Below, piece after piece: positions 1-13,606 of a stretch of DNA of 32,104 bases. The stretch comes from Bacteroidales bacterium. GTDB lineage: Bacteria > Bacteroidota > Bacteroidia > Bacteroidales > VadinHA17. Position 1 is the stretch's first letter. The number at the start of each line of letters is the position of its first letter. The notes under the pieces were generated by a model. That model had not been told where the DNA came from. It made no database searches and saw nothing but the letters and a program-made list of their open reading frames with translations. Position numbers and translations under genes: made by a program. The stretch is taken from NCBI GenBank assembly GCA_012517605.1, contig JAAYUS010000052.1, forward strand, positions 1-32,104, written 5' to 3'.

Positions 1-36
1 AATGAACTTCTAAGCCGCATTCAACCACGGAGTTTA

Positions 37-53
37 TCACGCTACCAGCGTGA
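37..53. repeat. REP-like 17-nt hairpin
   Basis: TCACGCT-ACC-AGCGTGA is a perfect 7-bp stem with a 3-nt loop. It has no T-tract after it, so it is a poor terminator. Its 7+3+7 geometry matches the hairpins at 6609-6810, which suggests the same class of extragenic palindromic repeat, although the stem sequence differs. Confidence 0.5.
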
Positions 54-85
54 CCATTTCTCCAATATGTAATGAACCTCTTGCT

Positions 86-145
86 GCTCTGCGCCCTCTG
101 CCCTGCGCCCTCTGCTCTGCGCCCTCTGCCTTCCCTCACACCTCG
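86..145. repeat. Mosaic 7-bp-period repeat array
   Basis: In one unbroken 7-bp register from position 86 the units read GCTCTGC, GCCCTCT, GCCCTGC, GCCCTCT, GCTCTGC, GCCCTCT, GCCTTCC, CTCACAC and a partial CTCG. The first six form a 14-bp super-period. The last units switch to the CTCACAC type also found at 3786-3820, and an 11-mer (CCTCACACCTC) is shared exactly between the two places. Confidence 0.85.
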
Positions 146-469: not shown

Positions 470-739
470 ATGACAAAAAAAGAATTAGTAAATGCAATTG
501 CTGCTGATGCAGGTCTTTCTATCAAAGATTCAGGTAAAGCTTTGAACGCATTTGTAGGAGCCTTCGGTAAAGCTATGAAAAAAGGTCAGAGAATACAGCT
601 TCCGGGAATGGGTACCTTCAAAGTTGACAAGAGAAGTGCAAGAGTTGTCCGCAACCCACGCACCGGCGCCAAACTTAATGTTCCTGCCAAAAAAGTAGTT
701 AAATTCAAAGCTGCTCCCGCACTTAGCAAAGGTCTTTAA
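470..739 (+). CDS. HU family DNA-binding protein
   Basis: This 89-aa histone-like protein would bind and bend DNA as a dimer in the nucleoid. The length is normal for HU/IHF. Visible hallmarks are the N-terminal helical dimerisation part (MTKKELVNAIA), the GMGTF turn near residue 47 (GFGTF in most family members) and the RNPRTG tip of the DNA-binding arm near 62-67, followed by a lysine-rich C-terminus. The ATG is chosen because it is the family start and lies about 35 nt after a strong promoter. The gene is a single unit: it has its own promoter upstream and a strong intrinsic terminator 23 nt after the stop. HU and IHF paralogues cannot be told apart here, so no symbol is given. Confidence 0.95.
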   Translation: MTKKELVNAIAADAGLSIKDSGKALNAFVGAFGKAMKKGQRIQLPGMGTFKVDKRSARVVRNPRTGAKLNVPAKKVVKFKAAPALSKGL

Positions 740-6520: not shown

Positions 6521-6582
6521 TTTCGCCGGTTTTTTATACAAACGTAAAACATTTCAAAACATTATCATTTAAAAATAACTGC

Positions 6583-6900
6583 TGATGCGTTAATTCTAAA
6601 ATTAAATAGTGCCGCGAAGTGGCACAATCTGAATAACCGTGGGTGCAAACCCACGGCTAAACATAAACTGAATATCTCAGCCCTGAAGGGGCTGAATAAT
6701 AGATTTTTATATTAAGATCAATATTCAACCCCTTCGGGGTTGCAAAGTGGAGGGAGGTCTTAACCGTGGGTGTAACCCACGGTTATTCAAATTTAACCCC
6801 TAAGGGGTAAAGATATCCATCCAAATTAAAAAATCAAAGAACACTTGTATTATGTTTACTATTAACACTTTGAAGTGATTTCTAAAATGTTAACGCATCA
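6583..6900. mobile_element. Candidate REP/BIME-type non-autonomous element
   Basis: TGATGCGTTAA at 6583-6593 and its exact reverse complement TTAACGCATCA at 6890-6900 enclose 318 bp containing all six hairpins and no ORF. TTCTAAAAT also occurs just inside both ends, in direct orientation (6594-6602, 6880-6888). No target-site duplication is visible and no transposase is present. Such hairpin clusters are typical of REP elements moved by IS200-like (RAYT) transposases acting in trans. An 11-bp inverted repeat can arise by chance in AT-rich DNA, so the boundaries are tentative. Confidence 0.4.
6609..6810. repeat. Cluster of six REP-like hairpins
   Basis: Six palindromes occur within 202 bp. 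(1) GTGCCGC-GAA-GTGGCAC, 6609-6625. (2) CCGTGGGT-GCAA-ACCCACGG, 6637-6656. (3) CAGCCCT-GAA-GGGGCTG, 6678-6694. (4) CAACCCC-TTC-GGGGTTG, 6726-6742. (5) An 11-bp stem ending in CCGTGGGT-GTA-ACCCACGG, 6761-6785. (6) TAACCCC-TAA-GGGGTAA with one mismatch, 6794-6810. Hairpins 2 and 5 share the same stem; 3, 4 and 6 form a second, related C/G-rich type, so the two types alternate. None has a proper T-tract. Confidence 0.85.
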
Positions 6901-6995
6901 CTACTATTTAAAAATTATGAATCATTTCAGACTTCAGGTGTCTGGAACGTTCATTTCTTTTTGATCTTTCCCTTTTCTTTTCATTTATTACTTTA

Positions 6996-7040: not shown

Positions 7041-8234
7041 ATGGAATACCTATCCGACAGAATCAAATCGTTGTCAGTGTCACAGACACTTGCCATGGCT
7101 CAGAAGAGCAGGGAGCTGAAAGCCAAAGGACTGGATGTTATAAGTCTAAGCCTTGGAGAACCCGATTTCAATACGCCCGACTATGTGAAGACTGCAGCCA
7201 AAAAGGCAATTGATGACAATTATTCAAAATATCCTCCCGTTCCGGGATATGATGATCTGCGGGCTGCAATTTCAAAGAAATTCAGGGAGGAGAATGGCCT
7301 TGAATATACCCCGGAACAGATCGTCGTGTCGGCAGGCGGCAAACATTCCCTTATAAATGTGATCCTTTCGATTGTAAATCCCGGTGATGAAGTGATAATC
7401 CTTGCTCCATACTGGGTAAGCTATTATGACCAGATAATACTTGCAGGCGGCAAACCCGTTATAATACGTGCAACCCTTGAAAATGATTTCAAGGTCAGAC
7501 CGGAACAAATTGAAGCTGCTATAACGGATAAAACAAGGCTTTTGATTTTCAACTCACCTTCCAATCCGACAGGTATGGTTTACACAGGGGATGAAATTGG
7601 GAAAATTGCAGATGTCATTGGCAGGCACGAAGGATTGTTCGTTATCTCTGATGAAATATATGAGCATATCATTTTCGAAGGCTTACATGTTAGCATGGCT
7701 TCCTTTAAATCAATATACGACAGGGTAATCACCGTGAACGGGGTTTCAAAAGGATATGCTATGACAGGATGGCGCATAGGCTATATCGGAGCTCCTGTTT
7801 GGATATCCAGGGCATGCAACAAGCTTCAGGGCCAGTTCACTTCAGGCGTATGCTCCATAGCACAGAGGGCCGCGCTGGCTGCCATTCAGGGAAATGATGG
7901 TTCCCGTCAGGTGATGAAAGAAGCATTTCAGCGCAGGCGCGATCTTGTTTGCAATCTTCTCAGCGATATTGAAGGAATGAAGATAAGGGTGCCTCAGGGT
8001 GCATTTTATGTGATGCCGGATATATCCTCCTTCCTTGGAAAATCGGATGGGAACGGCACTATAGCGAATTCGGATGATCTTGCCCTTTATCTTCTGGATA
8101 AGGCACAGGTAGCTGTTGTAGGAGGCGGTGCATTCGGCGCTCCGGAATGTATAAGAATCTCATATGCAACTTCTGATGAATTGCTTGTGGAGGCCGTAAA
8201 AAGAATAAAATCAGCTCTTTCCAGACTTAACTGA
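7041..8234 (+). CDS. Class I PLP aminotransferase (aspartate aminotransferase type)
   Basis: This 397-aa cytosolic fold-type I aminotransferase belongs to the Ib subgroup and probably transfers amino groups between aspartate (or aromatic amino acids) and 2-oxoglutarate. Visible features are LSLGEPDFNTPDYV near the N-terminus, AGGKHSL for cofactor phosphate binding, NSPSNPTG (171-178), D204 in ISDEIYEHI and the Schiff-base lysine K237 in SKGYAMTGWRIGY. C-terminal RISYA provides the substrate-carboxylate arginine. Length is normal. It is transcribed alone from its own promoter and ends at a strong terminator. Exact substrate preference cannot be read from the sequence; aspC/aspB is the likely name, but I leave the symbol blank. 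Confidence 0.93.
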   Translation: MEYLSDRIKSLSVSQTLAMAQKSRELKAKGLDVISLSLGEPDFNTPDYVKTAAKKAIDDNYSKYPPVPGYDDLRAAISKKFREENGLEYTPEQIVVSAGGKHSLINVILSIVNPGDEVIILAPYWVSYYDQIILAGGKPVIIRATLENDFKVRPEQIEAAITDKTRLLIFNSPSNPTGMVYTGDEIGKIADVIGRHEGLFVISDEIYEHIIFEGLHVSMASFKSIYDRVITVNGVSKGYAMTGWRIGYIGAPVWISRACNKLQGQFTSGVCSIAQRAALAAIQGNDGSRQVMKEAFQRRRDLVCNLLSDIEGMKIRVPQGAFYVMPDISSFLGKSDGNGTIANSDDLALYLLDKAQVAVVGGGAFGAPECIRISYATSDELLVEAVKRIKSALSRLN

Positions 8235-13582: not shown

Positions 13583-13606
13583 AAGGGCATCCGCGTGGAT
13601 GCCCTT
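13583..13606 (-). terminator. Intrinsic terminator of ppdK
   Basis: AAGGGCATCC and GGATGCCCTT form a perfect 10-bp stem with a 4-nt loop; on the minus strand TTACTTTT follows. It lies 19 nt after the ppdK stop codon and separates ppdK from pckA. Confidence 0.88.

Follow-up and report, generated by a model that had tools for sequence, protein, structure and literature searches.

In the IS200/IS605 insertion sequences, the subterminal hairpins at the two ends are in the same orientation. In the RAYT/REP systems (REPtrons) and the REPIN and BIME repeats, a Y1 HuH gene with inverted hairpin flanks is found together with dispersed, mostly non-coding copies, gene-less inverted doublets occur, and the gene copies are few and the hairpin copies more numerous. 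The definition of REPs includes a tetranucleotide, GTAG or GTGG, at the hairpin's 5' foot (PMC6006769). For subclass 1.2 of the TnpA_Y1 transposases no REP is listed, and its members are described as "generally without typical terminal IS200 secondary structure features" (Quentin et al. 2018, PMC6006769). In the IS4 family, target duplications of about 10 bp are generated (PMC2266710). MITEs of IS4-family insertion sequences have terminal inverted repeats, a target duplication of this size, no coding capacity and ends in common with an intact IS. The locus described here lies in a window (the whole 32,104-bp stretch of DNA analysed) that is contig C62 of a Bacteroidales metagenome-assembled genome (G000; 3.40 Mb in 269 contigs, about 95% complete).

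An earlier note on this DNA had pointed to six REP-like hairpins at positions 6609-6810. All six were found and their number is far above chance, as this interval contains six perfect stems of at least 6 bp with loops of 3-5 nt compared to a mean of 0.19 and a maximum of 4 in 2000 first-order Markov sequences. The pattern CCGTGGGT-N2-5-ACCCACGG occurs twice in the window for 0 occurrences expected, and the folding energy of the 331-nt stretch 6575-6905 is -121.4 kcal/mol compared to -68.6 ± 5.1 kcal/mol for shuffled sequences (z = -10.4). The stem count, the pattern count and the folding z rule out a chance origin of the hairpins. Two hairpin types had been described as alternating, which is ruled out by the mirror-symmetric order A-B-C-C'-B'-A'. 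This order results from two copies of a single three-hairpin module (A, connector TGAATAA, B, spacer, C) in inverted orientation, and its arms at 6626-6644 and 6775-6793 are 95% complementary. With R1, a covariance model of the three-hairpin module, the left half-module (A-B-C) was detected on the plus strand at 6608-6702 (88.3 bits, E = 6.5e-16 in its own genome) and the right, inverted half-module (C'-B'-A') on the minus strand at 6718-6811 (82.9 bits, E = 1e-14). The plus-strand features are hairpin A (GTGCCGC-GAA-GTGGCAC, 6609-6625), the connector AATCTGAATAA between A and B (6626-6636), hairpin B (CCGTGGGT-GCAA-ACCCACGG, 6637-6656) and hairpin C (CAGCCCT-GAA-GGGGCTG, then AATA, 6678-6694). 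Beyond the short spacer at 6695-6725 follow, on the minus strand, hairpin C' (CAACCCC-TTC-GGGGTTG, 6726-6742), hairpin B' (TAACCGTGGGT-GTA-ACCCACGGTTA, then the inverted connector TTATTCA, 6761-6785) and hairpin A' (ACCCC-TAA-GGGGT, 6796-6808). The 7+3+7 layout that had been attributed to five of the six hairpins is thus a loose description: it holds for A, C and C', with one G-T pair in A and one in C, but B is 8+4+8, B' is 11+3+11 and A' is 5+3+5. Further strong single hairpins are located outside the array, at 763-785 (GGGGGTGTT-CTGCA-AACACCCCC) and at 13583-13606 (AAGGGCATCC-GCGT-GGATGCCCTT), the latter between two minus-strand genes, where it could be a terminator.

The half-modules belong to a family in which pairing is kept while bases vary, as had been proposed. 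In an alignment of 36 half-modules, which were chosen as members so that the counts describe conserved pairing within the family and not an unbiased rate, the covariation score over 22 pairs was 0.410, while shuffled alignments scored 0.193 and slid structures no higher than 0.130. Helix B was paired at 97.6% with both sides changed in five of its eight pairs, and AATAA of the connector was invariant in 36 of 36 half-modules. Helix A scored lower (62.7%), partly because its 3- and 4-nt loops shift its alignment register. The note had also asked for further copies in the genome, extragenic and paired, and the family is indeed dispersed. R1 gave 21 matches in the window's own genome at E ≤ 0.1, and 16 of the 20 examined overlap no ORF of at least 90 aa. 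Matches were found in 78 of 117 genomes of the family at E ≤ 1e-4, and in 33 of 295 genomes sampled from the class, representing 22 genera, at 1e-6. Among the 150 family matches listed, 25 of the 30 neighbouring module pairs face each other. The A-B stretch is also common to three records of other species, all Bacteroidales/Bacteroidetes MAGs. No description of the three-hairpin module was found in the openly licensed literature on REP, REPIN, MITE and Bacteroidetes. It should be noted that a search with CCCCTNNNGGGG retrieved mostly another repeat type (TTTACCCCCC...GGGGGGTAAA), and that inverted CCCCCCTGAAGGGGGG hairpin pairs followed by short tandem units such as GGGGGGTAAAACAAAAAAA, without sequence relation to the array, are present on six other contigs of the same genome (C51, C79, C120, C127, C254 and C266; loci L040, L048, L057, L058, L062, L068 and L070).

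Strong folding (z = -10.4) together with compensatory changes could also be the mark of an RNA or regulatory structure maintained by the host, such as a transcription attenuator, an insulator, an mRNA stabiliser or an sRNA, under selection for a cellular function. We consider this unlikely, as compensatory change is also expected if a transposase reads the hairpins, and the presence of the array is patchy, with a varying genomic place and target duplications (see below). Moreover, the array is located between divergent genes (a minus-strand ORF starting near 6541 and a plus-strand ORF at 7041), upstream of both, and so acts as a terminator for neither. A position between divergent ORFs is also seen for the C144 copy and for one of the C121 copies. 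Two specific forms of this explanation were rejected: an intrinsic terminator, since the array is upstream of both neighbours and no T run directly follows the hairpins, and a known RNA family, since the single Rfam match, to a Staphylococcus sRNA model, was sub-threshold (27 bits compared to 100).

The limits of the feature had been set at 6609 and 6810, but the array proved to lie inside a longer element of 329 bp, which has terminal inverted repeats and is flanked by a target duplication. A three-way alignment showed that this element (6577-6905, plus strand), an IS4-type MITE without coding capacity, is copied as a block. Its left terminal inverted repeat AACTGCTGATGCGTTAATTCT (6577-6597, plus) contains the core TGATGCGTTAA, the inverse of 6890-6900, its right terminal inverted repeat GTTAACGCATCACTACT is at 6889-6905 (minus), and two copies of ATTTAAAAAT, identical at 10 of 10 positions, flank it at 6567-6576 and 6906-6915. 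Searching the window's own genome with 6540-6940 yielded a copy at C144:1692-2037 with 90% identity over 347 bp, one short form on C129 and, on C121, two rearranged copies (truncated and internally deleted). The left-end type TGATGCGTTAA is common to the copies on C144, C121 and C129 and to those of relatives G029, G042, G056 and G067, and the two-ended copies have in common ends like TGATGCGTTAA...TTAACGCATCA. A 10-bp repeat was found at approximately the same distance from the ends in all eight two-ended copies from five genomes (four in G000 and one each in G029, G042, G056 and G067). The matched bases, each out of 10, were 10 for C62, 9 for C144, 7 for C121, 10 for C129, 9 for G042, 10 for G029, 9 for G056 and 9 for G067. 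Together these represent 73 of 80 bases compared to a mean of 4.36 of 10 for cross-locus pairs, the choice of the duplication frames by eye inflating the match somewhat but not to the level of 73/80. Such repeats are characteristic of DDE transposition that duplicates 10 bp of the target.

That this intergenic region gathered six independent REP hairpins next to one another through successive rounds of RAYT activity appears highly improbable. The hairpins are REP-sized and the genome does contain a hairpin-flanked Y1 gene (see below), but the 329-bp block is copied in its entirety, ends included, the A-B-C-C'-B'-A' order is constant across genomes, and the 10-bp duplications flank the block and not single hairpins. 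Plain REP accumulation is ruled out by this block copying with 10-bp duplications. The IS4-type copies are few in G000 (C62, C144, C129 and two on C121) and several are rearranged; full IS4-type ends were found only around the modules of C62, C144 and C121 and were absent around those of C61, C97, C68 and C35. The short forms of C129 and G067 were considered as empty MITEs, but both retain hairpin A', which makes internal deletions more likely. These short forms lack the five other hairpins and have good target duplications, which suggests that the outer element can do without the array, the alternative being deletion after insertion.

The origin of the outer ends can be traced. The segment at 6822-6905 (minus strand) derives from the left end of an IS4-family insertion sequence, from the stretch that precedes its transposase gene, and contains a TTCTTTGATTTTTTGATTTGA-like motif. 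In G115, G038 and G077, the DNA just upstream of IS4 transposase genes, intact or partial, is 77-78% identical to this segment, and the identity is 75-78% when the right 85-100 bp of the element are compared. The intact gene of G115 encodes a 388-aa protein that matches DUF4372 and DDE_Tnp_1 and scores 241 bits with the NCBIfam IS4 model NF033592 (cut-off 115). In G070, an intact relative is bounded by ACTAGTGATGCGTTAAC and TTAACGCATCACTAATG and has a duplication of 10 bp, ATTAAGAACC. Terminal inverted repeats with TGATGCGTTAA are common to the MITE and to the IS of G115 and G070, and the length of the MITE target duplication agrees with the approximately 10 bp of the IS4 family in 8 of 8 two-ended copies. 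Homologues of the IS4-type transposase are present in 35 of the 117 family genomes, but a search of G000, a MAG of 269 contigs and about 95% completeness that may miss one, revealed none. The element thus has the features of an IS4-family MITE except a cognate transposase in the same genome, where it appears stranded. From this gene content, the outer layer is probably stranded in G000 today. The window element differs from other MITEs of IS4-family insertion sequences in its interior, where a structured repeat of foreign origin, linked to a different transposase family, stands in place of a remnant of the IS gene.

The earlier note was right that the window contains no gene for an IS200-like RAYT transposase, and three Y1_Tnp genes were detected elsewhere in the genome. 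On contig C61, half-modules at 18-113 (plus) and 630-723 (minus) surround a Y1_Tnp gene (Pfam; 181-627) that encodes a 148-aa protein with the motifs YINNQREHH and NHVH. The hairpins are AACCGCGACAGCGGTT, CCACCGGCGCAACCGGTGG and AAACCCTGAAGGGGTTT on the 5' side and CAGCTCCTTCAGAGCTG, CCTCCGGTTAGACCGGAGG-TTATTCA and CAGCTCTTTCAGAGC on the 3' side. A Y1 gene flanked by the same hairpins, which the note had proposed to look for, therefore exists as far as hairpin order, loops and connector are concerned, but the stem sequences differ from those of the window; in particular, the B stem is CCGTGGGT in the window and CCACCGGC in this cassette of the same architecture. C227 shows a related layout with other stems, and its protein is 39% identical. 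A search of the 117 family genomes with the C61 protein identified about 25 genes at 54% identity or more, and in the 18 relatives examined the flanks mostly agree in hairpin order and loops and have a TATGAATAA connector. Stems of the CCGTGGGT type were not found in any complete Y1 cassette, so descent of the window array from such a cassette is deduced from order, loops and connector. A direct repeat, ATTGTGGTAAGTT, is present on both sides of the C61 cassette (L073, at 1-13 and 3' of the right half-module) and may be a duplication or an assembly effect at the contig end.

The spacing of facing modules, among the matches listed, has two classes. Fourteen facing pairs are no more than 120 bp apart (commonly 13-15 or -2 bp) and nine are separated by 515-520 bp; the gene is present at about 515 bp and there is none at about -4 to 72 bp. 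In the window, the gap between the half-module matches is 15 bp, compared to 515-520 bp in the nine gene-bearing cassettes, in which the spacer is the site of the Y1 transposase gene. Of all the observations, these two peaks of spacing argue most strongly that the window array is a gene-less form, and the window copy is the REPIN/BIME-like form of the cassette. Head-to-tail A-connector-B units, near Y1 genes or alone, were also observed and are similar to tandem BIMEs (L151, L153, L155 and C68:242-548 of G000).

The RAYT/REP/BIME reading of the earlier note is partly supported and, as regards the RAYT link, largely right. A dispersed family, inverted pairs, compensatory changes and a Y1 gene with the same hairpin order at C61 agree with it. 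By contrast, each side of the gene carries three hairpins and not one. No conserved GTAG/GTGG foot was found in the 36 aligned half-modules, which have TGAATAA as their conserved element. With its Y---Q--HH motif the transposase is IS200-like, and neither the C61 nor the C227 protein matched the NCBIfam REP-associated model NF047646 (REP_Tyr_transpos). The Y---Q--HH motif and the lack of a match to NF047646 place the Y1 gene on the IS200-like side, the scores of the C61 and C227 proteins with the IS200 model NF033573 being 52 and 32 bits, below its cut-off of 55. As neither the GTAG/GTGG foot nor a REP-type transposase was found, we do not classify the array as a REP. Furthermore, its terminal inverted repeats and 10-bp target duplications indicate that this copy of the array was brought to its site inside an IS4-type MITE. 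Like IS200/IS605 elements, the cassette has a small HuH transposase gene with hairpins close to its two ends, but here the left and right hairpins are mutually inverted, with three on each side. Among described Y1 enzymes, the C61-type protein, likened to published members by their description, resembles subclass 1.2 (PMC6006769) by its length of 148 aa, its Y---Q--HH signature and its host group, the Bacteroidetes, and its low copy number is also in keeping with this subclass. It differs by the three-hairpin sets that flank the gene and by the HuH motif, NH[VL]H here and DH[IV]H in the published table.

Taken together, the nested anatomy, the block copying, the target duplications, the IS4-like ends, the Y1 cassettes of the same architecture and the covariation observed here make it very likely that the locus is a two-layer mobile repeat, in which a gene-less hairpin dimer of a Y1 cassette is nested in an IS4-type MITE. 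The inner layer (6609-6808) would be an inverted dimer that arose when a cassette of the order A-B-C-[Y1 transposase gene]-C'-B'-A' lost its gene. If RAYT/REP and IS200/IS605 are taken as a guide, the hairpins would be bound in single-stranded form by the Y1 (HuH) enzyme, with cleavage and joining close to them. In the outer layer (6577-6905), end segments of an IS4-family IS would have trapped the dimer in place of the IS transposase gene. The ends and the 10-bp duplications observed are those expected if the block in its full length was mobilised as a MITE by an IS4 transposase, presumably active in trans, and the outer element would thus have spread the CCGTGGGT lineage of the module. Descent in the reverse direction, in which the hairpin dimer was original to the IS4-type MITE and served as the source of the hairpins of the Y1 cassettes, is compatible with the observation of the CCGTGGGT version only inside IS4-type or other MITE-like ends (G000, G029, G042, G056 and G066, with a second end type in G022/G023), but seems highly improbable to us. 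Modules that lack such ends, frequently in gene-less pairs, are widely distributed across 22 genera of the class, and the ends of the IS4 insertion sequences themselves contain no such hairpins; the module therefore looks like the older, independent partner.

With the nested repeat as the preferred reading, a repeat that seemingly depends on an enzyme of single-stranded DNA travels inside a repeat moved by a double-strand DDE transposase, and REP-like copy numbers therefore need not reflect their own enzyme. We lean, if only slightly, towards the broader proposal that the subclass 1.2 Y1 transposases of Bacteroidia have a REP-like system of their own. It would be defined by the three-hairpin module, the TGAATAA connector and gene-less inverted pairs through much of the class, with a second, DDE-driven spread as MITE cargo (IS4-type, and the other end type of G022/G023). 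For IS200-like enzymes without a known substrate, the three-hairpin modules with their strong covariation provide a concrete and testable candidate, and the covariance model R1 allows easy annotation of the module family in Bacteroidia.

A few further arrangements of hairpins, ends and Y1 genes were observed. The second MITE-like element, in G022/G023 (L090 1370-1660, L098, L097 and L101), has the ends ATGCGAATCAAGAGTTGAA.../...TTGATTCGCAT and a possible short duplication, and encloses a TGAATAACCGTGGGTGCAACCCACGG hairpin and others; from this element, the capture of hairpins by MITE ends may have happened twice. In G086, on its contig C106 (L080), a truncated copy of the element adjoins a Y1 gene remnant flanked by ACCTCGTAGAGGT hairpins. 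Upstream of the third Y1 gene of G000 (C4, L072, 5529-6050, minus strand), tandem GAGCGTCGTAGACGCGACATGTTTGTAGAATC and GCCGC..GCGGC hairpins form a different repeat type. Other Y1 groups in the family carry other hairpins, and most of them (L104-L131) have flanking hairpins of their own (GTCCCGTAGGGAC, AACCGCGGAGCGGTT and CCGTTGGCTTCAGCCAACGG), which suggests that several independent REP-like systems may be present in the family.
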